From the NCBI GenBank assembly GCA_019096065.1, contig JAGUCH010000004.1:6572001-6636000 (forward strand): 64,000 bases of DNA, given 5' to 3'. Below, piece after piece: positions 20,449-54,200 of this stretch. A model generated the notes under the pieces. The model had not been told where the DNA came from and searched no databases. It saw only the letters and a program-made list of their open reading frames with translations. The position numbers and the translations under genes are program-made. Position 1 is the first letter of the stretch; each line of letters begins with the position of its first letter. This DNA comes from Paracyclopina nana. Lineage: Eukaryota; Arthropoda; Copepoda; Cyclopoida; Cyclopettidae.

Positions 20449-23400
20449 CCTTGATCTGGGCGATAGTGGTTGTGGCCTCAATGGAGGACAGGAGGGAAGA
20501 AACGAGCCTCGGTGTCAATGCTCTGGAGAGGATCAAACGTGGATCAGAGGCTGTGGCCACAAAGTTGGGCCCTTCGTTCCACACCGAGCCGCCCATGAGT
20601 TTCACCATATCCAACGACACTGGTAGTACACGCAACTTTTTCTGCGCGCACCCTTGGAAATCACAATTGATGTATTCGTTTCCATCTTTCTTCTTCAGGC
20701 GGAGTAATTGATTGCACTGCCTATGGAGTTCCACCTCCGAAGATCACTTGGCTTCGATATGATCCGGAAATCAAAAGCCCCCAGGTGACGCCTATGCAGG
20801 AATTGGCACCAACTTCCAATGACAAATCTGCCCTCTGGGAAATATTGACTCACAACAACTCCCTGAAATTGAGGCCGTTTTCCCCATTGGAGTACAATCC
20901 CCAGGTTCACAAAGCGGCTTATGTGTGTCGGGCTTCCAGTGAAAGTGGCACCATCCTCAGCCGAACTATCAACGTGAAGTCAGGTAAGAACGCTCAAGGT
21001 CGAGACTCAAGGGTCAAAGGCCAATAATGCATCAGGCGGAGTTCTTCAATATTCCTATACTTGGAAAGCAAGTGCCAGTCATGCGAGTACGCGATTCCAT
21101 CTCTGGCTTGCCAACAGTCTCTTCCGATGTATGGCTGCTTTGATCATCATCATTAAGTATTTATTGAGCATTGTAAAGCTCAAGGGAAGAGCACAGGGGA
21201 AAATTACAGCTCTCGTAAAAGCCTCCAAGATGTTTCCACCAAAGCACTTATGAAAGATGAGTTGGTGCGATTTGTCACTCTAGCTGTCATCCAGGCCTTG
21301 GAACATCACTGTTTAATTGGATTACACACATAAAGAGGAACCTCAACAGAAAGTAATGAAATTTTTTTGCAGAGTTGTGAGATTAGTCTTTAATTTATCT
21401 ATTTCCCCAAAAGTTTGTTGAAGTAGCCCAAAAGGGTAAAAATTTAGAGCTTTTTGTCCACCATCTGGCACCACTTTTATTCAACTGTGCATCAGCGCCC
21501 TCTCTTTCCGTAGCGGCCAAAACTAAAATTAGGATACAGTCCATAATACTAATTCCTTTTTTTGGGTAGTCTTTTTGCATTATCAATCAATTTCTGTGTG
21601 ACCAAATGGCCAGTGCTTTCCATAACAGTTATGGTTCGTTGAACCACAGATATCTTATGAAGTTGCTAAGTGTCTCTCTCGAGTTTGTATGTACGCGTAT
21701 TTGTCCAGCACAGCTCCATCTATTGAAGTGTTGATTCAGTTCAGATCGATGAGGAAGCACGTGGCAGCTTCTTCACACGCAAACAAAGATAGAGTATTTT
21801 GGGCGAATTTTTAACTTCCTCCAGTTCTTCTAGGCATCAACTGATTACGTTCCAGAGCATTAAACAGCAAGTAATCTACACTTAGAGAGAGAGCTGGCTG
21901 TTCTCTTCCTTTAATAGCTGAGGGCTTTTCCTTTCTCGCTATACAGTGCTACTCATATTCACTGTATTGCATAGAATTAATGGACATTATTGGGAGATCT
22001 GTCGACTGTAGTACACTGTATGTTCAAGATGCTTTGCCCACCCCATTATCTAGAAGGATTTCTGCATAAAAAGCATTTTCGCACACATGTGTACATTTCA
22101 TGCCAGCTTAATCTTCCATATTGGTAACATAAACAAGGGGAGCATGTGAAATCCATCATGATTCATCCTGATGAGGTACATCTAATTTTGCAAGGAAATC
22201 TTGGAAATTCACAAAGGGGCTCAAAATCTACAATGCAGCAAAAGTTTGGTCCCAAAAGCTGCGGTCAGTTGCCATATAATGTAATGATGCCATCGTCGTG
22301 TGGTCGCAACCATTTAACCTACGCATAAAAACGGAACCATATAGTATACGTACAATAACGCTAGCAGCTAGAATGATGACGACCAAAACTATTTGCACAC
22401 CACTGATGGCTGTCCTTGATGGTCGTTTTCGGCCTTTTATTCCGTGGTGCCATATGGCCTTGTCATCGCAGCATTCATGCATCTCAAAAGGTAGAAAACC
22501 TGAAAAGGGCTCATAGCTAGCTAATGATGCCCACTTTCCAGCTTTGCCCTTATTCTGCTATAATTGAACTCCATCACCAGAAAGCATGCGTTTCGGTTGC
22601 ACACAGTGCAATAATTTATCTTGAGCGCTGTTCGATTTGTGACCTCGAGTCAGTAGGATGTACTTAACTACTACTGCTACAACCGCCCCCGCTGTGAAAG
22701 GAATTGATGAGTCACATCATTGGATAACATATTGCCCGTGCGAGATGATAAAAAGGCCTTTCTTCGGTGCTTTTGATGACAAAGGCTCCTCGGGAAAAAT
22801 GCCCCCCACAAGAGAGGAACAAGGCCTATCATATAGATCCAATGTTTGCCCTCGAGCAAACTTTTGTGCCTTGTAGATTTTTTAAGCCACGCAAGCAAAG
22901 AAACTTTTTATAGCCAAAAATTAAAGCCAGGCGGAAGTTTAAGCAACTGAAGGAGAGCAGTTCAAGCGTTCTCAGCTGGAAAACAGTCCATCCATCAACT
23001 TGGGTGAAATCCTCGCAAATCTGCGCCTTGGGTTATGTGAAAGCTCTAGTGACGCCCTGAGGATGAATTTCCTCGACGCCCAAAAACAAAAGGACCGAAA
23101 TGCGATTTTTCGAGCCCCCTAAAACAATGTAAAAAATAGCTCAAAGAGAGCCTAGATAAATTCCAGGAATGTGGGTCAAGTGCTCCGACAAGAGATTAAA
23201 GGCAAGCTTAATGCAGACTTTCCCGATTTATTCAGCAGCCTTAATAGTGCTAGAATAATTAATTCACCTTACGATAGAGTCTCTTCCATAAGCGAGAGTC
23301 CCATCCTCCTCAGGTTTTGCATGGACACGCGGTGAAATCTCATAATATGATCCTGGGCATCCTCGAAGAAGGCCAACTTGCCGAAACACATTGGGCAAAC

Positions 23401-26400
23401 ATACAATTTGGTCACCAGCCTCGGATCCGTGATGGTATCGCCAAAGTTGGGCACGAGCTGCGATTGTTGGTAGCGAATTACAGGATTGTTGGAGTTTGGA
23501 TTCAACTCAAAATTGGTGAATGGCTCTCTTTTTCTGACCAAGCCAACGTAGCAGACATCTTGCATCATATTAGCAGGGCCTTCCAGGCCGAAATTATCGA
23601 TCGTTCTTTCGTTACTGATGGCAATGCTGGACACGTCAATTTCATCTCTCACAGGAACAGAAGAAGGATCAGGGGCCGAATTTTCATCCGAGGCAACAAT
23701 CGTGTCGGCCTCAACGTTGTCATCCATTTCAGTGATGTCATTGTCGACTTCTGCTTCTCTCGTGCTTTCATTTAGTTGAGGTGATTCAACCTCAGAGTTA
23801 TTGATGATCGTTTGGTGCACTTCGCTAATATGCATGTAAACCTCTCGACTAGAGTCGAAATTGAGGTCGCATATCGCGCACGTTGTGGCCGATACATATT
23901 GGGCAATTTTGGCACATTTGCCCTTGTGAACGCTCAGAAGTCTGCTGGAAACGAGATCCTGGCAGTAGGAGCACGTCATCAAACTGGGCGATGCAACATG
24001 CTTGCTAGCCTGTTGTTTCGGTTCCTGGTCTTCTTGCTGATTAGCCGGAGTGCATTTTTCCTTATGCTTTGTCATTTCAATGCCGATTCGGTATGATTTT
24101 CCACATCCATCGCAAGTAGCCCCTGGGGCTTTTTTGGGTGAGCTAATCAAAGTTTCAGATTGACTTGATTCTTCATCATCTGATTCCACGCTTTTAGCAA
24201 ACTCTGCCTTGTGGACATTGCCAATATGAAGAAACATTGACCTTGGCGAGTCATATTTCTTACCGCAAATCTTGCAGGTGTCCTTATCAATGTAATCGCG
24301 ATACTTTCGGCAAATGCCTTGGTGGTGTTCCAGGTGGGACTTTGAAATCAAGCGACTGCAGTATCTGCACTTGATTCCACCTTTCGGAGGGTGGACAACC
24401 TTCTTTGTCAAGTTCTTCCTGGATGATGAGGACTTGCTTTTTATCCTTAGCTTGCATCGGGGCCGATGCTTTTTGAGTTCAAAGCTTAGCTTGAACTTTT
24501 TGTCGCACAAGTCGCATCGCCAGGATTTGGTGGTAGCTTGATCGCTGCCACTGATGACTTCGGGGTGGCACGCAAATAGATGCGAGTATAGTCCGCCCTG
24601 GGTTGGTGCAACTTTGGCGCAAAGCAGGCATTCAAAGCCCACCTGACTCTCAAGCATGTAACCGAAGCAAACCTCGCATTTTGCCACGTGGTTGTTGTAG
24701 TCGAGGTATTTTCCTTTGAAGGACCGACGGCAAGTTAAGCAGAAAGGCGGCCCAGGGACAACTTTGGCACCCGACTCTTCGGCCTTTTTTTGCTTACCCG
24801 AGCAGCTCTGCTCGTGCATCCAATGCCCGTATGCGTGGACCATTCTTTTGCAGTAGGTGCATTGCTTATGGTTAGCTGATGGCCTCGCCCTGGCCTTCAA
24901 TTTGGACATCATGTCTCCTCCCTCCATGGCTATTGGAAAGAGCACCTTACGAGTTGCGACTATCGTTTCCTCAATCTCACGATTGACGTGTGAGTTTTCA
25001 CTTCGCGGTTGCAACAACGCTCCCAAGAGCAAGGCTGAGTGACTCTGACTAAGACTCTAAGAGTCTGAGACTGACTGCTGAGCGTCGACTGAGTACTGAC
25101 TACTGAGTACTTACTACCTAATTGACGCTGAGCGGCTGAGACAACTAACTCAGTATTTCCGTTTTCTGTCTTCAGCACGCGGTTGTAAACTTGTAATGAT
25201 GCGAACTGAGTGACTGAGACAACTGTCGCAACTATCGCAACTCGCAGGACCTAGCTGATTTCAGTGCCGTAAATAAATAGCTCTGGCGTCTCTGCTCTGG
25301 CTGATATTTGAGATTCTGAGGAGGCGGGATAAGTTGACTAATTGACTTGAACCCAGATGATCGAGTAGGGATAAGACGATTTGTGAACGAATCCTAACCA
25401 TCGCAATTCATCATTTTCACATGTTAGAAAGTTAGAAATGAAAAGGCGCTTACACTTTGAAAAAGTCGCTGATCGACTGATCGGTGATCGCTGATTAATT
25501 TGAGTAATTTCTAAGCTTTTAAAATTTCACGAAAAAAAGGAAGAAATTTTGAAACTGGGTTTCACGAGAAAATTAAATCGTCCTATGCGTATATACTAAA
25601 TACCGCACACAAACGCAACGCAACGCACACTACTAAATACCGCACACTACTAAATACCGCACACTACTAAAAAACGCACACAGCTAGGAAATGGAAATGC
25701 ATTTGAAATAATTTGACAGGCAATTATTTTTCTAATACACCCATGATAAAAATAAATTGTTTCACTCAGTGCTTTACACTGCTAGTTAAATAATTAGGTT
25801 TGGCGCGTAAACTAATTTTCATTGATGGAAAAAATGGGCTATAGCAGTTTTTTTTGGGTGGCAAAATGAGAATTTGGCGACTAATTCAGAAATTCTCATG
25901 CCTGTGAAAAAGGCTTTTTGAAACACCGTCAAAAAGGCTTGTAAGTGTCAAACAATGATTTTCTGTTGCTTTGCAAGTAATTTTGGATAAAAAATGGACA
26001 CTTTTTCAGCCAAATTTCATCCTTTGATTAATTCGTGACTATATACAGTATATGTGTGCGGTATTTAGTAGGCAAACATACTAAATACCGCACACACTAA
26101 AAAACAGCAATAAAGGCAAACAAACCCACAAAAAACCCCCAGATTCTGATTGAGCTATCGGGATTCACTCATGTATTCATGCTTACTTGTGTTACTAGTC
26201 ACTAAAGAAATAATTTGTGCTTTCCTCCAGCCAGTTTCATTAGTTCATAGATATAATAAAATATAAAAAGTAGTGTGCGGTATTTAGTAGTGTGCGGTAT
26301 TTAGTAGTGTGCGTTGCGTTGCGTTTGTGTGCGGTATTTAGTATGTACCCGTCCTATGTCTAGCCTGATAATTCAAAAGTAAACAAAATATCATTTGCTC

Positions 26401-29400
26401 ATCTGTGATTTGCCATTTAGCGCATTCCCATGTGTTGGCAGAATTTTCCGATTAACCAAAATCGGCTCCCATTGAGTTTTGAATCACTTGAATGGCGCGT
26501 CTTCTCGATTTGGGATGCTGTCATCTTGGGAGAATTTTGATCACCTATCTAAAGGACCGACGGTGACGAACTTGGAATTAATTAAAAAATGAGAACAAGG
26601 AGCCGAGGTGAATTGATCAAGCTTAATTTTTTGTTTCAGTGCTTCGCGAGGATTTTGCGGTTCGTGTTAAGGCCCCTGTAGCGGCAACTTCGGCCTTATC
26701 TTTGTCTTCCTCCGAGACCGTGGAAGTGACCTCGGGGAACTCGTTGGTGTTGCGATGCGAAGTCTCGCGGTCCGCATTATTGTCTCATCTCGTTGTGGAA
26801 TCTTGGATGAAGATCGAGAATGGACGCCACATTTCGATTGCGTTTGCCAAAACCAGCCATGGCTACACTGTGCGAGGTCAGTACAACTGTATTGTTTGTT
26901 AACAAAGACTAGATAACAATCACAATTTCGGAGCTGTTACTGCTGAAGAAAATTGGTTTTCCTTTTCTTTTATCACCACTTTCCTCCCTCGGAGCCCCAT
27001 GGGACTTTGGGTGCGGCCCGAGTGAAAGCTTGCGTGCTGCTCCCATGCGATGATGTTGATGTGCCCTGCTAGTTATCTCCCATGACGTACAACTGTCAAA
27101 CTTACTTCTTTCCTTCTCCTTCTTCTTTGCAGACAGTGGTCATCTTGTGCTTCACAACGGGGACTTGGTCATTGTCAATGCAAAAGAGGCTGGCGAATAT
27201 TCTTGCAAAGTGAAGAACTTGCTCACGAACCAAGTTACCAAGGGCGATAGCCTCAAGGTTCTTCCAAGAGGTAAATTCTTTCCCCTCAAGGCCACAGCAG
27301 ATTAAAAACTTGAGAGCAGCAGCACATCAGCTTGCATAAATACAAAAGAGGAAAGTTTCTGCGAGCACCATATATAGAGCTTATGAATCATGATGATCAT
27401 CCACCTTATAAGAACAGTATAATGCAGCTTTTGCCAAGATGGATGCAAGACATCTGAGAATGGATGGACTTGACTAAGCATAAGCGTTGGCTGTGTGCAA
27501 GAAAGCAACAGCTGAGGCAAAGAGCACCACCATTTTTGTCGTCGTTTTTATTCACTGCATCTCCCAAGGGAGCGTGTGTGCTGTGTCATAAACATCATTA
27601 GAAAGCTCCTCTCTCTTTTTTGCATCACTACTGCCACACCTGGAACTTAATTGGAAACGAATTCAGCAAAAAGTGGCGGGGGAATTTATGGCTTTCGCTG
27701 CAGAATAGGCTTTGAATTAGGTACACGAAAAAAGGCTTTCAATACCACTTTCCAATTTTCCAGAGTCTGACTTCGATCGGCGTCGTCTGGAGAGACCGGT
27801 GATGCAGGATCCGTCAGCAACATACATTGAAGCCAATTTCGCATCCACTGCCATTTTGCCTTGTTTTTCGCTCGGCTCGCCTCCTCCCATCACAAGGTGA
27901 GAGATTGCAAGTTAGTCCGCATGATTGCACCTTCTTTGTAGAGCACTGGGAGCTTCATTTGGAATTTGTCTGGTTCCATTAATTATCATCACAACTGCAC
28001 ATTCCTTCCCCTTGGGCTGAACTATGCCAATCAAATTCGTAAAACAAAGATCAGCTCCCGGCCCCCAACTAAAAGGACGCATGGTGTTAAACACACCTTT
28101 TGTAACCATGTCGATTCGAGAGGGGGAAGAGCTGGTGATTCATATTCATTAGCTCACTGAAACGAGAGAAGCTGATAGGCATCAAAGCAAGCTTTTTTCC
28201 CCGGGTCCTCACTGAAAAATAGATGGTCGACCCAGTTTTTTTGCCAAAGGGAGTAACATTCTGCGCGTAGCATAAGTGTGGCTTGTCAGCAATATTGCAG
28301 AATGTCGCACGCAAGAAATGGAGGCTTTCAATACTCCCAAGGGAATATCTGGTACTTGTTTGATTTGAGGAGGCAGTCAACGACGAAAATGGGGCTTGGC
28401 TATAATTTTGAATTTGAACCTCTAGCTGGCGATTTTATTTAGCCCTCTTCTATAAGCAGTGCATTTAATCACAGAGTAATGAATGGGCTTGCATAAATTA
28501 GACATGCCAAGGTTGGAGTACTGACATTCAATTCAATATGGCATATATAGAGTTGTGCTAAAGAGGAGTAAAACTTTCCTTTAGCTCTCACATTAGGAGC
28601 TGAAGAGAAAGGGGAAGACCAAATGGGGTTAGTAAGGGCGAAAAAGGGCTTTTATTTCTTTCAGCTCACCCATTTGCAAGTTCGCGCGGATTGAGCCGTG
28701 AAAAAGAGGACTTTTTAAAGTTGGCAATAAATCTCGATTAGAACTTTTGTAGCATAGCCCAAAAAGTGCCTCGGTTTTCGGTGTCGTCGTCTGTGTTGAA
28801 AAGCTACTGGCACGATTGAAAATCCAGAATACAGGGCTTTTCCATTTGTTGGGATCAATGGAAAGCAATTTGTAATCCCCCTTAAGAAGGAAGGCAGTTT
28901 TTGTCACACGACCTTTGAAAAGGCCTACAAGAATTGCTGCGAAAAAGCCCAATGTAATGATAGTGTTGCTTGGTCAGAAAAACGTAAAAGGTCTCTCTCA
29001 TTTTCTCCCCAGTTGGTTCAAAGAAAGCCATCATCATTTGCTGGACCCTCTTCCGAATGACGCGAGGTTCAAACACGTGGGTGGAGCCATTGTTATTGAC
29101 AAAGTGACACTCCAGGATGCGGGCAGCTACAGGTAATTCGCAATTATGTGCTGAAGCTGTCATCAACCCGCTGATTGTTGTTGTTTTTGTTGTAGGTGCG
29201 TGTCAAGGAACTCGATCGGTGAAAGCTCCACCACATTACATCTTGTGGTCCGACAGGAATGGGTTGTGGTCGTCGAGCCTGATTTGCAAGTGGCGGACTA
29301 TGGCTCCAACGCGGAGTTTTATTGTAAAATCTTCCCAAAAGACCAAGGTGATCAACGAGTATTATCATTGCCTTGGCCATCTGCCAGAAAGGGTTTCCTC

Positions 29401-32400
29401 TTGAGAGTCATTATATGCACACACGCTCTTCCAGAAGCAGCAGTTGTAGCAAGGCCAATGGCACTTTTGGCAAGGACAAAAGGCTTTTGCATCTGCTTTT
29501 CTTTTATGCAACGAAGTAGTAGATACTATACTCTACATGTGAAACCTGGCTGCAATTTATCTTAGCAAAATGGATTGGCGGACTGTGACCAGAATTCTTT
29601 GCCGTCGTTTTGCAGGTGCTTCTCCTTCTTCTACTGCCGCAGAATCCGAGATGGAAAAGTTGGCCAAGTCTGTGAAATGGCTCAAAGATGGCAAGGTCGT
29701 GACCGAGAAGGACCTTTCCAAGATTCAAAAGTTTGGTCCCAAGTTGCGTGTGAACAATGCGCAAACAGAGGATAACGGGGTGTACCAGTGTTTCGTCACC
29801 TTGGCATCCGGCCTCGAAATCCAATCAGCTGGCGAACTCAGGCTTGGAGGTGGGTAATCCTCAAAAAGGGTAAAAAAAGTCAAATAAAGGTTCTTCTGTT
29901 GTTGTTGTCATTTCAGATACCCTTCCAAGTTTGTCTTACGCGTTTATTGAACAAACCCTGCAGCCTGGGCCTTTAGTCTCTCTCAAGTGTTCGGCCTCGG
30001 GCAATCCTACGCCAAGAATAACATGGACCTTGGATGGCTACTCTTTGCCAGAAAATGATCGGTAAGCCCAAGATGGAAAGTTATATCTACACGCTCCACT
30101 ATATGATATGTCTTCCATATCCCCATATGTGTGTGCGTGTTATTAAAGTGCGCTTACTATTTGACCATATCTGCTATCTAGATGCTGCTGCTAGCTTCCA
30201 CTTGCTCCCGCGCATCTCTGAGAAATGGAATTTTTAGTGCGCGTTTCCTCGTCTATCTGAGCCACAGTCATAAAAAGAGATACATATGCTACATAGCTGC
30301 GAGACTCTACTGCAGAAGCCCGCTACTTATGGGCCTAATTTTACAATGGGAGCCTTGAAAATAGGCTATATTTAAATTTGGAGTGAGGCCTCATTTCAAT
30401 CTCATATTTATAGCACTTACTGCAATTATTTTCTGGTGCAATAGATATGGCTTTCGAAATCTAACCCTCGTTAAGTTTGCCTGGCAGTCTCGTTTTACAG
30501 ATGGCAAATACGAGTCTGCTAGAAAGCAATTAAACATCCATATATAGCAAACACTCTATATATCTTCTGTGTTTTATTGCAGATTCATGATCGGTCAATA
30601 TGTGACCGTGCACGGTGACGTCATATCTCATTTGAATATCAGCGAGACCTTCGTGGAGGACGGTGGCATCTACGGCTGCGAGGCCAAAAACAGGCAAGGC
30701 AGATCCAGCCTACTATATATATGTAGGGATATAAATCATTCAAACAATGTGATGCGCAGGGCTGGCTCCAAAAAACACTTCGGACGATTGAATATTTATG
30801 GACCACCGAAGGCGAGGAGCTTTCCCAAAGATTTGAAGGCCATCGAAGGCCAAAAATTCATCCTCCACTGTCCCATGGGTGGCTACCCTTTGGACTCGGT
30901 CCGCTGGGACAAGGACGGAGGTCGGATGAGCTCAGACCTACGAAAGAAGGTTTTCGACAATGGAACGCTCATCATCCACCGAGTGGCCAAGGAGGTCGAC
31001 GAGGGAGGCTACGTTTGCGAGGCCTCGAGCAGGAACGGCCAGACAGCCTTGGCCTCGGTGGTTCTGCGCGTTATCGGTAAACATTTTAACTGTACTCCTG
31101 GTTATCATACTACGTTGCGCGTTGATGATGAAAAAACATGAGATTGCCTTTGCAGTGGCGCCCAAGGTGGTGCCATTTTCAGCCCCGTCCAATTTGCAAC
31201 AAGGCGACAGAACGACCCTGACTTGCACTGTGGCTCGGGGTGACTCGCCCCTGTCCCTCACGTGGATGAAGGACGGGGAGCCCCTGAGGGGCTCAAAAAC
31301 GGTGAAAGTGATCCATTTCGACGAGTTCAACTCGATGCTCACGATCGAGTCCCTCGGATCCGAGCACATTGGCAACTACTCGTGCCGCGCCTCTAACCAG
31401 GCCGGTCAATCCTCTGTCGCCTCTCAGATTCACGTGCACGGTAATCAGTGACTGACTGCAAATTTTTACTTTCAGTCCCACCAGTATTAGCGCCCTTCAG
31501 TTTCGGCAGCAATCCGATTTCACACTCTTCTACTGCTCTGTCCTCTGTCCCGACTTTGGGCTCCCGCACGCGGGTACTCTGCGGGCTTGTCCGTGGCGAC
31601 ACACCGGTCATGTTCAGCTGGCTGAAAAATGACCGGCCTCTACTGACAAGTTACTCTGGAACGACAGCAACTTATTCTGCAGTGACCATAACTTCTGTAG
31701 ATGAGTTTTCCAGCCTCCTGACCATTGCCAGACTCGAGAGAGGCCATGCCGGCAATTACACGTGCGTGGCCTCGAACGAGGCTGGCGAGACTAAATTCAC
31801 AGCCTTCCTGGACGTACAAGGTGACTCATTGGTGGCAGCAACAGCAAAATAATTGAGCAAACATGTTGTTAAATAACCATCCCGCACCTGCTTGGCTATG
31901 TAAAAAAAGGCCAGCCATGTGTAAACGCTTTCATAGCTCTGATGCTGCTGTAGAAGAACAGAATCCTAGTACAGAAGAAGTAGCCTCATTTTGGTGTGTG
32001 TGTGCTTTCTAAATCGAGCAGGAGTCCCTTGGGACATTTCTAGCAAATCATAAACTTAATTGGTGTTGGCTACTTTATAATATGTGTCATTTGCTGTGTG
32101 CCTCCTTACATATCATAGAAAGACATTTTCTACTGCTTCAACTCTCTTCCTTTTCTCTGTATTCTCTTCTTCTTCCTCTGCTTCTTCTTCTCTTACTGTA
32201 AATTGCATGAAATTTGCATTGTTCGAAATTCCCTCAAGATAAATGTGTCCCCTGAACAAAGCACGTTGCGGTGGCCTAGCAAAAAGCTCATCGTTATTTC
32301 TCGAGGGAGAACAGCTCAATGAATTTGTCCCAAGCCAAAAATGTCTAGCATCCTCGGGGGGGAGAAACAGGAGAGCCTTTCATTCTAAAGGCACAGCAAC

Positions 32401-35400
32401 GTGTTTTGCATGTTATGTCGCGCACAGTGATTAAAGTAGAAAGTTGTGCATAGTGTCTAATATCCTTTCAGTGCCGCCATCTTGGATTGAAAAGCCTCCT
32501 GCCAGCCTCGAAGTGACACTTGGACGGAAAGTCGAACTCTCGTGCACCGCAGATGGAGCCCCTCAGCCCAAGCTCACTTGGAAAAAGGAAATTGGTAAGG
32601 GAAACCCTTTAGGCAAACAGACAAATTGCTCCTCCATGATGATGGATCTTGTTGTTGCAGGAGGTGAAAATGGGGGAGGCGGTCAAAGAAACTTTGTGGA
32701 GATTTTCAACAACAATATGGGGGAAGTCATTGTGAGTCCTCAAGGGAGTCTGGTCATTCCGGAGGCAAGTGCCAGCCATGCTGGCAGATATTTATGCCAT
32801 GTGTCAAACGGGGTGGGTCAACCCCTGCACACCATCGTGAATATCACCGTCAAAGTTCCGCCCAAGATCACTGTGGACAAGTCGAGGATCAACGCGGCCA
32901 TCAATGATGACACCGTCGAGATTGAGTGCAATGCTGACGGCGACACGCCAATCACGGTCAAATGGGCAAAAGTAACTAAAATCGAATTGCTGCCACCACC
33001 TGCTCATTTCGAATGCCATATTTTGATTCCAGGATGGGATGAACTTCTTGGGAGGAAGCCACCAGGGAAGATATTCAATGGAGACGTTGACCACGGCCAC
33101 TGGCATCAAATCTGTGCTGGTCATTAGCCAAGTCATCAAGGAGGACGAAGGCTTGTACGAGTGTGGAATGACCAACCCTTTTGGCAGCGACACGCAAGCC
33201 ATCAAAATTGTAGTTAGAGGTAAGCACGTCTTCCCTCTAGCACGTAAATGAAGGAGATGAAATGTTGTACATTTTGCTATAGAGCCTCCACAAGAGCCTC
33301 GAAACCTTAGGGTTTTAGAGGCCACCAGTACCTCAGCTCGGCTCTCTTGGGAGGTGAAGAGGCTTCCCAATGCCGAGGACAGCCTGCCCATCAATTCTTT
33401 CACCATTGAATGGACTCCTCTGCAAGGTAAGCAAAAAACTTGGACTGATGTTGAGCGCGAAAAAAGTTGCTTTCTAGCTGGACATAGTAGCAATTCTTTG
33501 CATTGATATGGCAAGTCCCAATTAGGGAATAAGCTCTTGCTATAGCATAGCTACTTACTAAATGAGGAAGTTTTGAATAGATGTGTGGTGCTAAAGTGGA
33601 ACTTGGAGATGGAGTTGTCATACTATAGGATGGCTCGCATATTTCCCCTATTTACACACTACTGCTATAATACTATAGCCGCGTTGGTATAAAGAGAGGG
33701 GGACATTTTGTTGTTTGCTCTACTATTATACTACAGTGGTCAAAGTGTCCCAATTTCCCCCCTTTTTGCACTTTTTCAGCTCCCATTAATACATCCTTCA
33801 TTATAAGCGTTAAAAGTAGTGATGGAACGAGTCGAAAAAATTGGGTCCGAGCAAGTTCAGAGTTGCTGAAAATTTTTCCGAGCGAGTTCGAGTTGCCTCT
33901 AATGGAAAACTAGTTCGGTCGAGTTGGCAATTTTCAAAATCCGAGTTATTTCGAGTTTCAAGCATTGCTGCATAACCTGCATTCAGTGCATTGTTAATTG
34001 GATTTTTATTATATTTTAGCTAGAAATTAATTGATTGGAAAACTGTCCTACAAGAAGATAACAGTCAAGAACCATTCACAAGTTGCTTTGCAAAAATATT
34101 AGCGAATTTCAAATTAGCCATATTTGATTATTGAGAAGTTTGGCCAAATTTTTGTTTAATTTTTTTCGAACTTTCGAGTTCGCAATAATTGCTTCCGAGT
34201 TTTCCGAGTTCTCCCGAAATTTTTTTCGAGCGAGTAAAATGCTTATGTAGTCCGAGTAGAGTTAGCCTTTCGAGTTACCTAGTCGAGTTCAAACTCGTTC
34301 CATCACTAGTTAAAAGTTGAAAGCTGAAAGCCCACTGTGTAAATTAAGCAATTGGTCAAGCCATTGCTGTTTATGGATGGACTGCTATAAACCCTACAAC
34401 TAATAAAGAGGAATTGACGCGCATAGTGCTGTTTTATTGGTGGCAATTTCTGGCTGTTTATGGCATCTCTCTCTCTACCAATGTAAAGCGCTTGATTTTC
34501 TTCCGCACATTGGGTTTGACAGCCATCTGCAAACTTTCTCAACAGGAAGCCCAAAAGAAAACTTTTCTCTGGTGGTGGACCTGTTAATAACATTGCCAGT
34601 AGCGCAAATAGCAGAGCTTCGGTATATTGCAATAGGGTGTTTGGAAGTGTTTGTTGTACTTTTTTTTGCCAAGTCCCTCGATGTCATGGAAGTACAACCA
34701 CAATTCTTCTCTGTCCGACTTTAATGCATGTACTACTTTACTCACATGGGCTTTTCTCGCGAAAAGTACTAACTTTCAAATAGCCTTACTTTTTTTCGCC
34801 GCCAATATAGCGCACTTGGAATATTTTTTGCGTCAAATGCCAGTTTGTTATTTAGAAAGCCAAAGGCCGATGTTTCAAGAATATTAGCGGTGACATAGAC
34901 ATGGCTTGTTACTCTTTGCAGCTCAATGGGACTCATCCACCGTGCAAAAGGAGGTGACTGGCCACGTGCTGAGCTCCAGCATCGAAAACCTCCGGCCATA
35001 CACTCAATACAAGGCGAGGATCAAGGCCGCAAATGACCTTGGTTCGAGCAAACCATCCAATGTGATAGTGGTGAGCAGCTCCCATATACTATTTTTCACG
35101 AATATGCAATGCTAATGCATGATATCGAATCTCACAGTTCTGGACACTGGGGGATAAACCGACTGGCCAGCCCCTGGATATGAAGGCCGTTTCCACGTCT
35201 CCCACCAGCCTTTTACTTCAATGGTCGGATCCCGACGCAGCTCATTGGAATGGGGCCATTTTAGGCTTTCGAGCTGGTTGGCGTCGACTGCGGTAACCCT
35301 TATTTAAGAATAACGTATTTAATTGTATGCAAGTGCGCTGTAGCAGGAGAAGCGAGTTGGAAAGTGCTGAAAATGGCCGCCATCACCACCAAGATCCTCA

Positions 35401-38400
35401 AGGCCTTCTTCTGCCTATCGAGACCACTTTAGGAGCCTACAATTGGACTGAAGTGGAACGATATGATTCCACAGACCTCCAACTTATGCTCAAGGATTTG
35501 GAGCCCTATATGAGATACGAGATTCTGCTGCAAGCCTATAATCAATTTGGCAGAGGGCCTGTGGCAAAGCTCGAGGCAGACACCGACTCTGATGGTATAT
35601 GAGTGCTCCTACATTATTCTGGATGTACATCTACCAGTTCACGTTCTTATCTAATTGGTTTCAGTGCCGAACTCGCGGCCAGAGGGAGTCTCCTGTGAGG
35701 GTGTCACGTCAGCAGGAATCCAGCTCAAATGGGATCTAATTCCCTTGGATAACTTGCGAGGGAAGCTAACTAGCTACAAAATACACTATCAAGAGGTGTC
35801 GTCCCTAGACTTGAAGGACAGTAAGAGGATTCTGCGATTGCACAGAAGGGTCACTTCTAACAAAAAAGTCGCATCGTTTTCATTGAAAATTGTGCGAAAA
35901 AGGCCATCACTAATTCGGCTCTAGATTGATGCTAATACTTCAAAATTGACTTCCTTGATGTTTTTGGGCTACTAAAATGTTATCTTCAGAGATTTTATTT
36001 TATCAAACTCAGATTTTGTCAATGAAACTCTATGCCAAAAGGCTGCAAGAAAATCAGAAAAAAATCATATGTGCCAATAGATCCCTTGGACTTCAGCATT
36101 CCTCAAAGATGCTTTCCAAAAAACTTCAGTAGGACACCTTGGAATAATTTAGTACCCCTGTTGTGTTCATATATCCACATGCTTATGAGATTTGGAGGAG
36201 TTTTTGCCAACAAAACTTGTGGCTATTTCTATTAAAATTGGGGTGCTTTTGATCAATTTAGGCAATTGGCTGCCTAAAAACCTAATTTATTTACATTTTT
36301 CTAGCTTTAGAATAACTTTCCTATGATTTAGAATGGGATTTATCTAAGTAATGCCAATTTTTGGCATTCTTGAAGTTACGGTGCATTTTCACATACTTTT
36401 CAATGATGCGACTTTTTTATTAGGAGTGACCCTACTGTGGATTGGTAACCTTAAATATGATGCTTTCAATGAATGCTTTACTTAGGCTCCAATGGAGGGG
36501 TTGAACAAGTGGCACCCTCTGCTCTTAAAGTCATCAACATGAAGGCCACCTTTGTCCTTAAAGGACTACGACCCAATGGTAATTACAGCATAATGCTCAA
36601 CGCTCAGACCTCAAAGGGGGACGGAGCAGTTTCCTTGCCAATTTTCTGTCCAACCAAGCCATCAGGTAAGCCATTGAAGACGTGTCAGCAGCCATCCAAT
36701 TACTATTCTAACTTTATTATTCTGCATAATAAAAAGTACCCGGATCCCCTGAGGACTTGAAAATCACGATCAAAAGCGATTCGGCTGTGATAGTTTCTTG
36801 GCTACCTCCTCAAAGGAACTTTGTTCTCATCACAGGCTATACGCTCTTTCTAAGGTAAGCCCTTTTCTTTGTTTGTTGCCATTAGGAGCTTACCATGCAA
36901 AATTCAAAATACTTTATGCAAAAATCGCGTTTTTTTTCGGTAGCTTGTCAAAAATGGTCAAATGCCGCATTTTTTTGCAGTAATTTGTCAAAAACGGTTG
37001 AATACCATACTTTTTGAGATAATTTGTCAAAACTGGTCAAATACCGCACTTTTTTATTGGTAAAATGGCAAGAAAGGTGAAATACTGCTCTTTTTGTTGG
37101 GTAATTTACCTAAACTGGTTTTATATCGAACTTTTTCTCGGTAATTTTTTTGCCTCATTTTTTTTCGGTAATTTGTCAAAAACGTTCTCAAAAAAATGCT
37201 GCACTCAATTTGTAATAAACACAAATATTATGCGGCTAAGAGAGAAAAAAAAAGTTTTTTCGGGAAATTGCGAAAAATTGTGAATTGGAGGAATGCCGCA
37301 CACTAACGTAAAGCAACGCACACTACTAAATACCGCACACTACTTAATACCGCACACTACTTAATGCAACACACTTCTAAATACCGCACACAGCAAAAAT
37401 TCGAAATGCATTTGAAATAAATTGTCAGGCAATTATTCTAATACACTCATAATTAAAACAAATTGTTTTCACTTAGTGCATTACACTGCTAAACAATGAT
37501 TTTCTGTTGCTTCGCAAGTAAGCCAATTTGGGATAAAAAATGGACCCTCTTTTAGCCAAATTTCGTCCTTTAATGCTCTGTTCACCTACCAAGGAAATTT
37601 TTTCCTTCCGTTAAATTGTGTTTTACTTAAGCCTCCTATTTCAGAACTGATCATTTTTACTCACTTTTCATAGCTTCAATTAGACCACTTTTCCGACCTC
37701 TTTTGGTCATATGAACTAGAAGTGTTATGATTAATCAGAAGTACGAAAACTTAAGCATTTCGTTTAAGGCTGTCGTAAGATTTTAAGGAAACGAGGCATA
37801 GATGAACACCCTATTAATGTCAATTTGTGCATAAATGCCATTCAAAACTATCTGCTTCCTCCACAGATACACATTTACTTTCCTTAGATTAATTCAAAAG
37901 TATATAAAATGTGTTCATTATTTAGTAGGCAAACACACTAAATACCGCACACTTAAAGAAATGGCAAGAAAAAAAAAGATTATGGTTGAGCTATCAGGAT
38001 TCACACATTGATATATGTATTCATGCTTTCTCGTGTTTCTAGTCACTAAAAAATACTTTGGGTGATGGCAAAATGACTCGTATTGCAGGCTGAAGCTCAA
38101 TCTTGAGGGTACTAATTTAAAAATCTTTTCTCTTCCTTTGCCTAATCTAGGCACAAACAGGATGACAAGGAAGAAGTCTCCACGGATGAGGTGCACGTGG
38201 AGACATCCTTATTGCAGTACACCGTAGAAAACCTATCTCCGTCCGTGTACTACCAGTTCTGGGTGGTGGCCAACTCGCTCCTGGGGCCAGGAAATGCCTC
38301 TGTCATCCGCGGCTATCGGGTGTCCAAGTCCGGTTATCGCTCCGATGATTTAGGTATGTGACCGTAAATAATAATGCTATGAAGTGTGCCAAGCCTTCTT

Positions 38401-41233
38401 ATTTAGTAGTGGGCATACATTCTATCGGCCGTTCGCTGCAAGTGGCCCAAGGTGGCACCATCAATTTGCCTTGTCTCTACACTGCCAGTGGCAACATTGA
38501 AATCGACTGGTTCAAAGACCACCATCAAAGAGGCCGCAACAACATCCGCCATTCCGAGGCCAGAGCTCAGGGAAGAATTTCTATACGCAAACACCATTTG
38601 GAAATTACTAACGCTCAGCCTGCTGATGCGGGCAACTACTCGTGTCAGGTGAAAGCCTGGCAAAGGGAGGCTCACGACTCCATCACATACACACTCCTCG
38701 TACTAAGTAAGCTTATAGTATATACTGCTAAAAGTTAGACCTAACTTGCGAGAAACTTTTGCGAACTCCATGTAGAATGTGTGTACGGTTGGAGTGAACT
38801 TATTCATACATCTTTTTTTTTCAGGTGAACCCTCACGACCTCGCCTGAGGCTGATTTCCTCGGATTCCACCTCAGCCAAATTAGAGCTAAAAGTGGAGGA
38901 TGAGGATGAGAAGCAGCTTCTGCCTCTTCTCTGGTGCTCTGTGTTTCATCGAGCCAAATTCGGCCAGCCAGAGGAGACCCTTTTGCCAGGCAGAAACTTG
39001 AATAGCATTCACATCAACAGCCTCAAATGTGGGACGACATACAGGTCAGTGGCCTATTTATGGCAAGAAACTTCTTCCTCCTTTTATGTATGCTTTTTTT
39101 CCCTTTCTTGCAGTGTTTATGCCACCTGCGTTAATTCCCAAGGATCGAGTGGGGCTTCAGTCCCAATCGAGGACGTTCAGACGCGAGGACAAGTCCCTGT
39201 TGCACCATCCAACCCTGCGGACTTTGTCCACCCTTCCAATACTTCCGTGAGGCTGGACTTGTTCACGTGGAGCAAGCAGACATGTCCTGTCGATTACTTC
39301 ATTGTCAGCTACAGAAAAGAGAGGGTGAGATCAAGGGAATTGTGAAGCCTGATCGAAAAAAAATGAGATTTTGCTCCTTGATCTTGAGTTCCGATATTTT
39401 AAAGGCAACTAGCGCAAACAAGCTGTAGAGTTCGAGTGAAATTTCGAGTTCTAATTTCGAATGTTTTCAATGTAATTTCAAACAAGTTTCTTACGTAGGT
39501 ATAATTTTTTCCATCAGACTCTAGTAGCAAAGTATCACTGATGAATGTTTCACATGCACTTGATAGGATTTGCATTGGACCCTGGTTTCCAACGACTTGG
39601 GATTGCGATCACGCAGGTTCACCATTCGCCAATTGGAGCCGGAAACGTCGTATGAATTAAAGATAAAGGCCAACAATCCTGCAGGCTCGACAGACTTCTC
39701 ATACAAATTCGAGACTGTGTCCTCACTCGCAGCCTCCGCGGGCACGCAGCTGGGGATAGGCTCCACTCAAAACGGAGGCCAAAATGGCGATCGGGACATC
39801 ATCACCAGCGGAGGCCTCAACCAATTGCAAGTCATGCTACCCGCCATTTTGGGCCTTATGCTGGTCTTGTTAGCAGTTGCTGGATTTGCGGTTTGCGTCA
39901 AGCGAAGTAACAATTGCTCATTTAACGAGTTTTTTATATTGAGGAAGAAATCGTATTATATTCTTTAGAATTGGAGGATCGGACAAAGAGGCATTACCTT
40001 CAAAGTGAGGATCCTTTTACTGGCGAGAAACCAGACGAGAGAATTTACGCCCAAGTGGATACTTTGAATGCAGGCCACCACCGCCATCATCTTCAGCAGC
40101 AGCAAGCCGTTCTTCCTGCACCCAATCAAATGTTCTACAACAGTCATTTTGCAAACATGGACACAATGGGGAAAATCCCCCGTATGATAACTCTACATGC
40201 CAAAGTTAGTTCGACATTAGTTGCATAATGGATTTTTCTTGCAGAGAATCCTGATGACATTTACCCATATGCAACGTTCGTCCTTCCGGATGCGGATTGT
40301 GGAGCCTCCAGTTCAAGAATTGACGTATCTGCGACCTATCAGCAAACTCCAGACTCGATAAGGCAGCAGCAGCAGATGGTGCTCAACGAAAATAACTCGA
40401 CTACCCTTTTGCAGCCCAGAATCAGCACTCTCGTCTTCCAAGAGCAGCCCACTCTTCCACTCTCAGATGCATACAGCAATTCAGTAAGTGCATATCAACC
40501 GTGTCTACAGTGGGAATTTCATAGCATTGCATCTTTGCAGAGCTACTCCACTAGCAATCCCTACCAAGTTGTCCACCAGCAGCAGCAGCAGCAACCAAGT
40601 CACGGCAAAAAACGGCAAAAGAGGAAGAAAGGGACAAATAATCCTCAGCCTCAGCAGCAGATAATGAAGCAGCAGCCCGCAATGGGTCTGGTTTCGCTGA
40701 GGCAACATCAAGCTACTTTAAGGCGTAGCGAAGAATGTCTGACAACGTCATCCCCTGAATCCTCCGAGACTAACTCCGACTTGGAGCAAGATGGCCATCA
40801 CTTTAATAATAGTGGTCTAGTGCCAAACGGAGCAGAATCATCTGGCCAATTAGTCATGGAGCCAGTATGGACTCGTCAAGCGCCGTCAACTGGATATGGT
40901 CCTCCTCCGGCTGCTGACACAGATACGCTACCTAGTTCTGAGGAAGAGGAAGATCCGTATGACAAGGCTGCTGTCAATAATTCATCCCCTCAATCTGAGT
41001 CTCAGTCCGAGGACATGAACGATGTGCCCGACCAGCTACAGCAACAACGGATTTTCGTCAAAAAGGCCAGTGGGGGCTTTGTTGGGTTGACACCTCATCA
41101 ACTTCAGCAAATGCAAATGGTGGAAGTGCAGCAGCAGCAATCCTCTAGCAGGAAATCACTTTCCAACAGGCAAAGTCCTCGCAATGCAAAACGTACCAAG
41201 CAATTGCAGCCAACACATTCCAAATTGGCATAG
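20449..41233 (+). CDS. Dscam2: Dscam-like Ig/fibronectin-III cell adhesion receptor (5' incomplete)
   Basis: Thirty-one in-phase exons: 20449-20622, 20699-20983, 26640-26876, 27133-27270, 27764-27896, 29013-29132, 29196-29347, 29616-29849, 29917-30061, 30583-30693, 30760-31076, 31156-31440 (Ig7a), 31476-31820 (Ig7b), 32472-32594, 32661-32971, 33033-33219, 33283-33426, 34922-35070, 35138-35292, 35347-35594, 35665-35820, 36486-36665, 36737-36854, 38151-38353, 38407-38706, 38825-39044, 39114-39324, 39567-39906, 39969-40181, 40245-40483, 40541-41233. If one Ig7 exon is used per mRNA, the order is Ig1-9, FN1-4, Ig10, FN5-6, one membrane segment (MLPAILGLMLVLLAVAGFAV) and a long Gln-rich tail: the exact Dscam layout. 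Family knowledge: homophilic neuronal recognition and self-avoidance. Seen: GPSFHTEPPMSFTISNDTGG at Ig1, RLNIYGPP between Ig5 and Ig6. No Dscam1-type exon arrays are present, so Dscam2 fits best. The first exon with the start codon is missing. Confidence 0.9.
23269..24927 (-). CDS. Multi-zinc-finger protein nested antisense in a Dscam intron
   Basis: A single-exon gene of 552 residues starting at the first in-frame ATG (24927); the frame stays open upstream without a further ATG. Seen: about ten zinc-binding units, alternating C2H2 and C2HC types, such as CTYCKRMVHAYGHWMHEQSC, CLTCRRSFKGKYLDYNNHVAKC (C2HC), CLLCAKVAPTQ-H-x-CH, CDLCDKKFKLSFELKKHRPRC, CKICGKKYDSPRSMFLHIGNVH and CPMCFGKLAFFEDAQDHIMRFH. 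Triplets of CxxC...H...C followed by C2H2 with a VH ending recur twice, suggesting internal duplication. Acidic linker at about residues 390-460. Inference: a nuclear nucleic-acid-binding protein. No orthologue recognised. Confidence 0.85.
   Translation of the reverse strand: MEGGDMMSKLKARARPSANHKQCTYCKRMVHAYGHWMHEQSCSGKQKKAEESGAKVVPGPPFCLTCRRSFKGKYLDYNNHVAKCEVCFGYMLESQVGFECLLCAKVAPTQGGLYSHLFACHPEVISGSDQATTKSWRCDLCDKKFKLSFELKKHRPRCKLRIKSKSSSSRKNLTKKVVHPPKGGIKCRYCSRLISKSHLEHHQGICRKYRDYIDKDTCKICGKKYDSPRSMFLHIGNVHKAEFAKSVESDDEESSQSETLISSPKKAPGATCDGCGKSYRIGIEMTKHKEKCTPANQQEDQEPKQQASKHVASPSLMTCSYCQDLVSSRLLSVHKGKCAKIAQYVSATTCAICDLNFDSSREVYMHISEVHQTIINNSEVESPQLNESTREAEVDNDITEMDDNVEADTIVASDENSAPDPSSVPVRDEIDVSSIAISNERTIDNFGLEGPANMMQDVCYVGLVRKREPFTNFELNPNSNNPVIRYQQSQLVPNFGDTITDPRLVTKLYVCPMCFGKLAFFEDAQDHIMRFHRVSMQNLRRMGLSLMEETLS
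25588..26349. mobile_element. Palindromic array transposon with 9-bp target duplication (copy 1)
   Basis: The left arm (25588-25685) repeats ACTACTAAATACCGCAC in tandem; the right arm (26266-26349) is its near-exact reverse complement, including the GCAACGCAACGC variant. A third short inverted pair lies inside at about 26053-26097. The 9-bp word CGTCCTATG flanks both edges (25579-25587 and 26350-26358). No coding capacity. Non-autonomous; a 9-bp duplication would fit Mutator-type elements. Confidence 0.8.
30694..30759 (+). other. GC-AG intron in Dscam Ig5
   Basis: The 66 nt start AG|GCAAGG, the best consensus for a GC donor, and end CGCAG|G. Removing them gives AKNRAGSKKHFGRLNIYGPP, matching other Dscam proteins at this spot; keeping them adds 22 unexpected residues without a stop. 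Confidence 0.75.
31156..31440 (+). other. Dscam Ig7 exon, variant a
   Basis: Encodes a whole Ig domain (VAPKVVPFSAPSNL... to NYSCRASNQAGQSS), starting and ending in phase 1. It is homologous to the next exon, which has the same phases. Confidence 0.85.
31476..31820 (+). other. Dscam Ig7 exon, variant b
   Basis: Encodes a second Ig7-type domain (VPPVLAPFSFGSNP... to NYTCVASNEAGE), phase 1 to phase 1, with a longer N-terminal strand region. It lies only 35 nt after variant a; the gap has a 5' splice site (GTAATC) and a 3' splice site (TTACTTTCAG). Confidence 0.85.
33817..34308. mobile_element. hAT-type MITE with 8-bp target duplication
   Basis: A perfect 16-bp terminal inverted repeat (TAGTGATGGAACGAGT, 33817-33832 and 34293-34308) is flanked by an exact 8-bp direct duplication GTTAAAAG (33809-33816 and 34309-34316). 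The interior is rich in CGAGTT words. It lies inside the Dscam intron 33427-34921 and is non-coding. Confidence 0.9.
36938..37184. repeat. Diverged tandem repeat, about 40-bp unit, in a Dscam intron
   Basis: Six to seven imperfect units of the form GGTAATTTGTCAAAA-x-TGGT..AATACCGCACT begin near 36938, 36977, 37016, 37059, 37100, 37139 and 37166. The unit ends in the word ATACCGCAC that also builds the neighbouring array element. Confidence 0.7.
37293..38065. mobile_element. Palindromic array transposon, degenerate copy 2
   Basis: The left array (TACTAAATACCGCACAC units with TTAATA variants) spans 37293-37394, followed by the same interior as copy 1 (GCATTTGAAATAA, CAGGCAATTATT) and the same internal inverted pair at about 37920-37952. 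The right terminal array is missing, and about 280 bp of unrelated sequence interrupts the middle (about 37572-37888). It lies in Dscam intron 36855-38150. Confidence 0.75.
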
Positions 41234-51200: not shown

Positions 51201-54200
51201 ATTTTCTTCATCGTCCTCATCCTCATCATCACTGTACAATATTCTCAAGCCCTTCTTCGCCACTCCGATGCCCAGTGACCAAGGGGTGATGTTGTAGGTG
51301 TACTTTTCTCGCAAGTCACTCACTTCCACGAAGGGGAACGGAGCGATGTCAACTAGAGTCTAAGTAAAGCAAATAGAAAGCTGGCATTGATGGCACTGCC
51401 TTTCATGGTTATTTACCTTGATAAGCAGGTTCGAGTCAGATATGCCAAACTGGAGCATTTCCTGAGATAATTGGCCCATCGCACAATAAAACTCATCAGC
51501 GGAGCGGACAGTCAACACTCGGCTAGAGGCAAAATGAGATAATTTTACAATGTAACCATATAATAGCTCAACAGTATTTTAAGGTATCCCAAGAAATATA
51601 GCTCCTTCTAACAATAGAATTTTTCTACAGAGATACTTTCTTTTATGTATGCTTTTAAAAGCAGATGCGTATTTTTTCATCCATCTAATCATTGAAAAAC
51701 TAATTTACCAAATAATCAACGACATATCCTAATGAGAGCTACAATGTGCATTGTTCGTTGGTTTCTTAACTTGTCAATTCTTAAAATAAGGTCTTCATGA
51801 GAAGCATCTATTTTGCACAAAGATAATTGCTCAAAAAAGGGCAATTTGAGGTAGCGAAAAAGTCGAAACTTAAGATATGAGAGACGTATATCCATTTTCC
51901 CCCATCTCCCTGATCTAGTACGTACACAGACTGCATTGTATAACTAAGGTGCTCTAATGAGCTTACAAACATCAATTAGGCTTTTTGGTGATAATTAGGA
52001 TTATGTTGTACAAACTCACTCCTCGAGGCCTTTCCAAATAGCCAATGCCGTACGCAGGAGAACTTCGTTGCCCTCCAACAGAATGAGGTCCCACACTCGG
52101 AGAACAATGTCTCTTGGTAAACATGTTGAAAACAGAGTCAGGAACCATTGCATTGTAAACACGTTAGTTAATGGAGGCTCATAATTGGAGGCTGGGAAAA
52201 AACACAGCGTTGAAGAAGATGTGTTATCATTGAAGCATTAGAGCATATTATTACGAGAACATCCATCATTGGCCTCATTTTGTAAGTCATCCAAGTGTTT
52301 TGACAGTTTGGGCAATTGGAGCTTCATGAGGTCGCGGAAGACTGCCATGTCCACGGAGAGGCCGCGGAGGTTGCTGCTAAAGTAGTTTTCTGGGAGAATG
52401 CCCTCGATCATGTAGATCATCACTTTCAGCGCATCCGACTCTGCTTTCTCCATGACTTCCAGAATTATGGCAGCCAACATGTTGAAGCCTTGACAATAGC
52501 CTATGGCCTTGTTCCAACGAGCATAGGCCAATAAAACGCGTTTCAGCATCAGCTGGTTGGCCAGTGCATCCTCTCCACTGAAAAGGTCGCATCCAGTCCG
52601 ATGCAGATCCTAAATACAAAGGAAAATGGAAATCAATATTGTGCCACACCAATCTTTTTAATTCTTTTTTACATTTTACATAGAGACAGTAAACTACATA
52701 AAGGTAGGCTGTAGATTAAATATGTGAACTCACTCTAACAATTTGCAGTCCTAATTCATCATCATCCGGATTGCTCCATTCATTGAAGCACGACCTTTCG
52801 GCCTTTTTCCAGTCCACTCCCTTGTTGGCCAAATAGCGCTCCGACAAAGTTAGCCACAGCTGCAACAAATAGTTCATTTGATTCTATGGCAAAAAAGATA
52901 CGTACGTCCCCTATTTGAAAAGGACCTTGAACTACTTTCACTATTATTTATGCACCTTTTTGCGAAACTCCGAGGGGACGCCTTCAGGTAGTCGTGCAAC
53001 CATTTTCATCGCATCTTTCCACTGGATGTAACTGGGATCGCCTGGGAAAGGCTCAAGGCTGAACCGAATCCTGGTATCTTGGCCTTGAAGGAGAAATGCA
53101 ATATTAAAATACCTGACTCACAGCAAGCTGAAAGAATGCATTAATCTAGTTATACCAGCTTTCACCGCAGTCTTGACACCAGTTTGTACTCCGGACTTGA
53201 TGGAGTTGAAAATGGAAGAGAATTCATTGCCAAGACCATCAAGTGTGACCTCGGAGCTAGCATTCTTTTTCACTTGAGCCATTTCTTAGGGGAATTTTGC
53301 TGCTAGCCAGGGATCACTTGATGCCAAGGAGCAAAAGAATGAAAGCCATGCGAAGCAGAACAAACATTATGCAGTAGAAATTAATTTGCAAAACAAAAGC
53401 ACACAGTGTGTGACAGCTCTGGATCTACCCGCACAACTGAAGGACAGAACGAGTGGCATTCAGCTGCAAAATCGAGCGAGTGTGTGTGTGTGACCATGGC
53501 CTTGCTTTCTCACTCCGACGTCGCGGCTCTCCAGAAAAGAGCCAACTTTCCTCCTCCGACGTTTTTTTCAAAGGACTACAACTACCACTACATGAAAAAA
53601 CCACACGTGACTTCTCAAGCAGTAAACTCACTCCTCTTGGGACTGGATGCCTGAAGGATTGCTGTCACCAAATTGTATTGCCTCTCACGCCGATGCCTCA
53701 GCCTGTCACGCCGCTTAACCTGCCTGGTCAATTGGCTCATGCAGTACTGAATTTGAGCCTCGAGTCGTCGATTTTCTTGCCGCAGCTCATTGATCCCTGA
53801 AATGAATCACATTTCCATATTATGTATCCAAATGACAAGTGCACTTTGTTCCACTCGGTAAACGGATTAAGCAACTGTTTTTTCACAATCCAATTACCTT
53901 TCTCCTTGAGCTTGTGATGTCGAGAGGCCTGACTTTCACGAGACTTGCATCTAGATCTGCATGCTTGGTGGTGGCTTGCTGAGCCCCTTTGATTGCAAAA
54001 AGTCTGTCCTCGACAGCACACCTGGTCTCCAGGCTCGGATGTTGTGGAATATTCAGTCAAATAGTCAGACTCCTACATTTATAGCGTTTCCCAGCATGAA
54101 TATCAAAAAGTTTAATAATAAGCTAACCTGGCTTCCACTTGCGCTCGCGCGACGAGACGAATCCAATCCGTCGTGGTTACTTAAACCGTTGCCGAATCTG

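Follow-up and report, generated by a model that had tools for sequence, protein, structure and literature searches.

Two Dscam Ig7 exons 35 nucleotides apart in the copepod Paracyclopina nana: predicted mutually exclusive splicing by a sub-minimal intron

A Dscam-like Gene With Two Adjacent Ig7 Exons

In this work, we analyzed a stretch of 64,000 nucleotides (nt) from the copepod Paracyclopina nana (assembly GCA_019096065.1, contig JAGUCH010000004.1, positions 6,572,001 to 6,636,000 of the forward strand; hereafter the window) and found a Dscam-like gene that carries two adjacent, homologous exons for Ig7. As modelled, the gene occupies window positions 20481..40000 on the plus strand, running from the earliest in-frame ATG observed through the transmembrane segment and beyond. 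The two predicted alternative Ig7 exons, a (31156..31440, 285 nt) and b (31476..31820, 345 nt), lie on the same strand and have phase 1 at every splice site (phase 1-1). The 35-nt sub-minimal intron between them (GTAATCAGTGACTGACTGCAAATTTTTACTTTCAG, 31441..31475, phase 1) has GT at its start, TTTCAG at its end, and a 3' portion rich in pyrimidines. Upstream, a 79-nt phase 1 intron (31077..31155) separates exon a from a constitutive exon that encodes the end of Ig5 and Ig6 (30760..31076). Downstream, a 651-nt phase 1 intron (31821..32471) leads to the constitutive exon for the N-terminal half of Ig8 (32472..32594), the acceptor of which is common to a and b.

Both exons matched solved Dscam structures in single-sequence phmmer searches. 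Exon a matched the Ig7 region of 3dmk, a Dscam chain (positions 619-711, 7.3e-24), and the same Ig7 region of 6zr7 (1.2e-20). The matches of exon b were weaker (3dmk 634-711 at 1.2e-11 and 6zr7 at 3.1e-15). Titin topped the lists of both exons, and other I-set proteins were matched as well, as is usual for queries with Ig domains. Because titin heads both lists, the placement as Dscam Ig7 rests on register: when joined, Ig6, exon a, and Ig8 align in a single run on 3dmk 538-808 with 182.8 bits, compared with 52.9 bits for the next-best stretch of 3dmk. The Ig6-7-8 register of the gene is therefore that of a solved Dscam. In addition, a profile built from six Ig7 sequences of the same genome scored 72.4 bits on the Ig7 of 3dmk and at most 29.5 bits on its other Ig domains.

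Exon a has no stop or frameshift and keeps the conserved cysteines, the tryptophan, and the GNYSC motif. Exon b encodes approximately 20 residues more, part of them near its N-terminal end. These N-terminal extra residues (about SHSSTALSSVPTLG, window 31500-31570) were found in no other aligned Ig7, and inspection by eye revealed no suitable acceptor for an intron hidden in exon b that would remove them. The initial annotation had described two adjacent homologous Ig7 exons of phase 1-1 with 35 nt between them, and the coordinates, the phmmer matches, and the register on 3dmk all agree. The two exons are homologous (41% identity) phase 1 exons, each encoding a Dscam Ig7 domain, and are 35 nt apart.

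Gene Model and Other Features of the Window

The gene model was built on splice-site scoring and homology; its signal-peptide exon was not located, and its transmembrane segment was judged by eye. A long open frame extends beyond the model to about 41230. Among the Pfam models, Ig_3 matched six stretches (I-set five) before the Ig7 pair and two after it. These are followed by five fn3 stretches, one Ig, and the DSCAM-specific C-terminal Fn3 (PF25059, the C-terminal Fn3 of DSCAM/DSCAML; 147 bits, two stretches). With one Ig7, the layout is Ig1-9, FN1-4, Ig10, FN5-6, and a transmembrane segment. The earlier claim that use of a single Ig7 restores this canonical Dscam layout is borne out by the Pfam order, with the limit that no single Pfam model counted all six FN domains. 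The model holds only two Ig7 exons, one Ig2, and one Ig3, which is not the make-up of the hypervariable Dscam1 (Dscam1-hv), and the trees described below place the gene outside the group of Dscam1-hv and fly Dscam1. Judged by domain order and tree placement, the window gene is Dscam-like and falls outside the Dscam1-hv group.

A probable 66-nt GC-AG intron (30694-30759, CAG/GCAAGG...CGCAG) lies within the Ig5 coding region. This intron is in frame and open, so that retention would add 22 residues to Ig5 and move the start of the Ig5/Ig6 exon to 30583. The 5.7-kb intron between Ig1 and Ig2 contains an antisense 595-codon open frame (23272-25056, minus strand) with zinc-finger-like cysteine/histidine repeats seen by eye; it had no Pfam match at 1e-5. 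Neighboring genes identified by Pfam are a Sec1 family gene (507-1067, plus strand), a RabGAP-TBC gene (52241-52609, minus strand), a Ctr copper transporter gene (56838-57233, minus strand), and an ESCO-type acetyltransferase gene (58842-59792, plus strand).

Reading Frame and Splice-Site Strength

The lengths of both Ig7 exons (285 and 345 nt) are divisible by three, and the models with a, with b, with a and b, and with neither all translate free of stops. Retention of the 35-nt gap leads to a stop three codons past exon a. Since all four arrangements are open in frame, neither the frame nor nonsense-mediated decay can enforce a choice, and exclusivity must come from splicing.

Splice sites and branch points were scored by generic, self-made matrices, and percentiles refer to 59 other introns. 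Among the donors, that of the Ig6 exon (TCG/GTAAAC) ranks very low (2nd percentile), exon a has a weak one (15th), and exon b has an average one (58th). The acceptors of a, b, and Ig8 fall at the 24th, 73rd, and 44th percentiles, respectively. Given its stronger acceptor and donor, exon b should win by default.

Intron-Length Floor and Branch Point

For comparison, we collected 103 other introns from the same genome (92 Mb searched, ten contigs), namely, 43 from kinesin, Cpn60, and UCH genes located by Pfam profiles and 60 from three Dscam-like genes. AMP-binding genes were also searched and contributed zero introns to the count. The five shortest introns measure 50, 50, 52, 52, and 53 nt, with a median of 71 nt for the whole sample, and 51 introns do not exceed 70 nt. 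Short introns are thus abundant in the genome, yet with a floor near 50 nt, and the 35-nt intron lies 15 nt below this floor; that is, the intron between exons a and b is shorter than the minimum found for the organism (35 versus 50 nt, 103 introns). The initial annotation had put every other measured intron of the window at 51 nt or longer, which holds for the gene model: its smallest other intron, a low-scoring join in FN2 that starts at 35293, is 51 or 54 nt. A NAGNAG acceptor (GTAGCAG) accounts for these two lengths (35293-35346).

The sample was assembled as follows. Profile positions gave estimates for 62 exon pairs. One pair fell outside the examined stretches, and seven could not be joined (estimates of 49 nt for one and of 56 nt or more for the rest). 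Of the 54 joins obtained, we counted 40 in which the number of residues deviated by no more than 1 as well as three corrected ones, and we dropped 11 (at least 61 nt as joined). Three automatic joins below 45 nt (31, 31, and 38 nt) were read by eye and measured 64, 64, and 62 nt; the lowest estimate from profile positions, 4 nt, belongs to one of these three. Four low-confidence introns of the window gene (35821-36485, 36666-36736, 39325-39566, and 40005-40244), all modelled at more than 60 nt, were left out. Two of the 103 introns have ends off by 1-2 bases (20622 for 20623; 35293-35345 for the intron of 51 or 54 nt), and the minimum is unchanged by this.

Within the gap, CTGAC (31452-31456) is the best match to a branch point; its A lies 14 nt past the donor and is followed by 20 nt. 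For 54 short introns, the same matrix placed the branch point at a median distance of 36.5 nt from the donor. A threshold of approximately 50 nt between 5' splice site and branch point has been published for U1 and U2 to be recruited together (PMC7969005), and a review states that mutually exclusive exons flanking an intron that is too short cannot be joined (PMC6071210).

Other Dscam-like Genes in the Genome

A genome search with exon a identified further Dscam-like genes. One of them, at 4.36 Mb of contig C4 (C4:4358767-4357957, minus strand, locus L009; hereafter the sister gene), has the order Ig6-Ig7-Ig7-Ig8. Its Ig7 exons, X and Y, are 294 nt each and of phase 1; X was given its start by eye, and both exons have low-scoring acceptors. 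The acceptor preceding X (ACACAAAAG) has no pyrimidine tract just upstream. Within the 223-nt intron that separates X from Y, the final AG ahead of the acceptor ends at position 153; the branch point should thus be approximately 150 nt or more from the donor, which implies no steric bar. At 3.21 Mb of the same contig lies another Dscam-like gene, among whose listed open frames a single Ig7 exon was seen.

A Dscam1-type array was found at 5.00 Mb of contig C8 (C8:4990087-5007162, loci L015-L016), with 15 Ig7 exons of the same phase. In this array, 11 of the 14 gaps between Ig7 exons were resolved and measure 80-113 nt, and three were unresolved; the 103-nt gap is taken from the second-scoring join, since the top-scoring join would cut the domain. 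Open frames at the locus also fall into groups linked by blast, with 17 of Ig2 type and 18 of Ig3 type, not individually checked. This make-up (17 Ig2-type, 18 Ig3-type, and 15 Ig7) differs from the counts of 8/24/17 given for Daphnia magna (PMC5465998), which do not point to a close relative of Daphnia; the array and these groups make a pancrustacean likely.

A five-row tree built on the constant domains joins the C8 gene to fly Dscam1 (100/99) and the window gene to the sister gene (80/83, not starred). In the Ig7 tree, the C8 array groups with fly Dscam1 as well (96/94, with nine of its 15 exons). Among the Ig7 exons of the two paired genes, the constraints a+b, a+Y, b+Y, X+Y, a+b+Y, and all four together were not rejected (approximately unbiased test, p-AU 0.31-0.49). 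The identities of a-b, a-Y, and X-Y are 41, 38, and 33%; these values tilt toward pairs that arose separately or have changed greatly, but are not decisive. Exon anatomy suggests that two Dscam-like genes of this genome may each have two isoforms. The predicted sub-minimal lock is peculiar to the window gene among the Dscam genes identified.

Candidate Regulatory Signals and RNA Folds

The 651-nt intron downstream of exon b contains seven YGCUKY hexamers (31926-32184), which we take to be Muscleblind-type motifs and which were picked after the fact. Their density is the highest among the 26 introns of at least 300 nt, this intron included, and their number exceeds the mean of 2.6 in dinucleotide shuffles (p 0.007; Poisson 0.003). 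The shorter YGCY is not enriched in this intron (13.8 versus 13.2 per kb). The intron also carries a pyrimidine tract (32145-32194), a 50-mer that is 94% pyrimidine. The hexamer cluster and the tract suggest a possible Muscleblind- or PTB-type control of the pair.

Four stretches around the splice sites fold no more stably than shuffles (z -0.44, 0.88, 0.69, and 1.73). There are 22 inverted-repeat pairs in 30990-32600, one of which, an imperfect palindrome (31422-31451), extends across the donor of a; the stretch that holds it is among those that fold no more stably than shuffles. On these folds, local RNA structure was rejected as a control, while long-range pairing may still contribute.

Mutually Exclusive Use of the Ig7 Exons

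We consider mutually exclusive use of exons a and b, enforced mainly by the sub-minimal intron, to be the best explanation of this anatomy, with a probability of about 0.74. In the proposed mechanism, binding of the U1 small nuclear ribonucleoprotein (snRNP) to the donor of a and binding of the U2 snRNP/U2AF to the branch point and acceptor of b would be in competition over the same 35 nt. Exon a could then not be joined to b; the Ig6 donor would be spliced to either a or b, and the chosen exon to the Ig8 acceptor. The short intron would supply exclusivity without a dedicated repressor. The choice itself would probably come from splice-site strength and tissue factors, with b as the default and a in need of help or of repression of b, and a choice that differs between cells would still require a regulator. 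By analogy with fly Dscam2, we infer that isoforms a and b would differ in homophilic binding and thus provide two recognition specificities.

Several observations weigh against this explanation. The exons of the sister pair are 223 nt apart, so steric blocking is unneeded for such pairs generally and a sub-minimal intron is not a general means of exclusivity. In-frame AGs at 31484 and 31490 would stretch the intron between a and b to 44 or 50 nt. The absence of introns below 50 nt among 103 bounds their share at only approximately 3% (rule of three), and some organisms do splice introns shorter than 50 nt. Furthermore, the branch-point matrix is generic and noisy, and in several ordinary short introns it picked sites 7-21 nt from the donor, some of them implausible.

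The two AGs would also serve joint inclusion of a and b, with removal of the 35-nt intron or of its longer forms to give a protein with 11 Ig domains. Such a product would be in frame, and the 3' splice site of the gap is good (73rd percentile). However, the alternative acceptors at 31484 and 31490 score poorly (10th and 0th percentiles), none of the 103 other introns is shorter than 50 nt, and two serial Ig7 domains would be unlike the Dscam layout of the rest of the gene, which makes joint inclusion quite improbable. Exclusivity could alternatively depend chiefly on RNA-binding regulators or competing RNA structures, as it does in Dscam2 and Dscam1 of Drosophila, with the short gap being incidental or a back-up. 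The sister pair, if exclusive at 223 nt, needs another mechanism than steric blocking; the 651-nt intron combines the top YGCUKY density with the 94% pyrimidine 50-mer; and Muscleblind reportedly regulates Dscam2, as the title of a 2019 paper by Li and Millard has it. Nevertheless, local folds near the splice sites are no stabler than shuffles, the hexamer was chosen post hoc, YGCY is not enriched, and a gap 15 nt under the floor would not need to follow from regulators, even if these account for the choice. We regard this alternative as rather unlikely.

The weaker donor and acceptor of a might also mean that one exon, most likely b, is normally used and that a is rare or decaying. Exon a is intact, retains its conserved residues, and is the better match to a Dscam Ig7 (7.3e-24 versus 1.2e-11 to 3dmk), all of which speaks against decay, and we hold this to be very unlikely. 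Finally, an ordinary intron may have been shortened by an assembly error, given that a single assembly is available and that the palindrome 31422-31451 (arms 78% complementary) lies across the donor of a. This is scarcely credible for a gap that carries a donor, a branch-point match, a pyrimidine-rich stretch, and an acceptor, in a window that has no N and where the remaining repeats near the site are short.

We tentatively propose, while leaning toward doubt, that the Ig7 pair predates the split of the window gene and its sister gene and that both became binary systems, the intron of the window gene shrinking to a hard-wired U1/U2 switch and the sister gene staying dependent on regulators. 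If true, up to four identity states could come from two genes, which would offer a natural side-by-side contrast of locked and unlocked exclusive splicing.

Significance and Comparison With Known Systems

The choice of Ig7 in Dscam helps to set who recognizes whom among neurons. In the window gene, this choice seems fixed by little beyond the distance between exons, which would hard-wire a two-way choice of cell-surface identity. The paralogue with the same kind of pair and a normal intron provides a built-in control for asking whether a spacing lock replaces regulator-dependent exclusivity. The finding is relevant to the history of Dscam-like genes as well. One survey reports no closely related Dscam-like gene in Daphnia pulex, save two earlier-reported regions of other domain organization (PMC3364881), D. 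pulex orthologues are mentioned elsewhere as unpublished (PMC3236188), and a review refers to paralogues described for at least one crustacean (PMC5465998). Our literature searches, with subscription papers mostly outside their reach, returned no report of steric Ig7 exclusion in a Dscam-like gene and none of Ig7 pairs in two Dscam-like genes of one genome. As far as these searches reach, Ig7 alternatives in flies, Ig7 pairs in chelicerates, and steric exon exclusion are already known, and the predicted steric exclusion acting on a Dscam-like Ig7 is new.

In vertebrates, steric exclusion is described for OGDH exons 4a/4b, alpha-tropomyosin, and alpha-actinin, where a distance of less than approximately 50 nt between 5' splice site and branch point blocks exon joining (PMC7969005). 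Among human clusters of mutually exclusive exons, 57 of 629 are listed as potential steric cases by a 50-nt criterion (PMC5740500). OGDH has distant branch points within a longer intron, whereas the entire intron is 35 nt here. Within the Dscam family itself, the Dscam1-type array on contig C8 also has tandem Ig7 exons of the same phase, but with 15 exons and ordinary intron lengths. The sister gene has its exon order in common with the window gene and differs in its 223-nt intron, with a branch point far from the donor. Steric hindrance is also said to operate in Dscam exon 17, according to the title of a 2013 paper by Yue and colleagues. That case concerns transmembrane exons, while here the module is Ig7 of the ectodomain and no local RNA structure stood out.

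In Chelicerata, two-exon arrays of the equivalent of Dscam1 exon 9 (Ig7) are described as often observed, e.g., V7 of sDscam-beta1 (PMC4835542). The Ig7 pairing is shared with these sDscam genes, which in contrast are shortened and have 5' cassettes. Alternative splicing is also described for AbsCAM, a Dscam-family gene of the bee (PMC6469410). In flies, Dscam2 has alternative Ig7 exons, Dscam3 and Dscam4 have a single isoform, and Dscam2 and Dscam4 are closely related (Armitage et al., PMC3364881); the choice in Dscam2 is cell-type specific, and homophilic binding is isoform specific (PMC5991427; PMC11292952). Given the single isoform of fly Dscam4, it is notable that the window gene and the sister gene each have two Ig7 exons. 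Like the window gene, Dscam2 of Drosophila is a non-hypervariable Dscam paralogue with two Ig7 exons, the alternative use of which is predicted here. The initial annotation had proposed a Dscam2-like two-isoform system under steric constraint; its predicted exclusivity is well supported by the anatomy and the intron sample, while equivalence to Dscam2 does not follow. Because the sister gene also has an Ig7 pair, this trait alone cannot identify an ortholog, and the label "Dscam2 ortholog" is not established. In the window gene, the spacing by itself falls below the splicing floor, and a second gene with paired Ig7 exons is present in the same genome.
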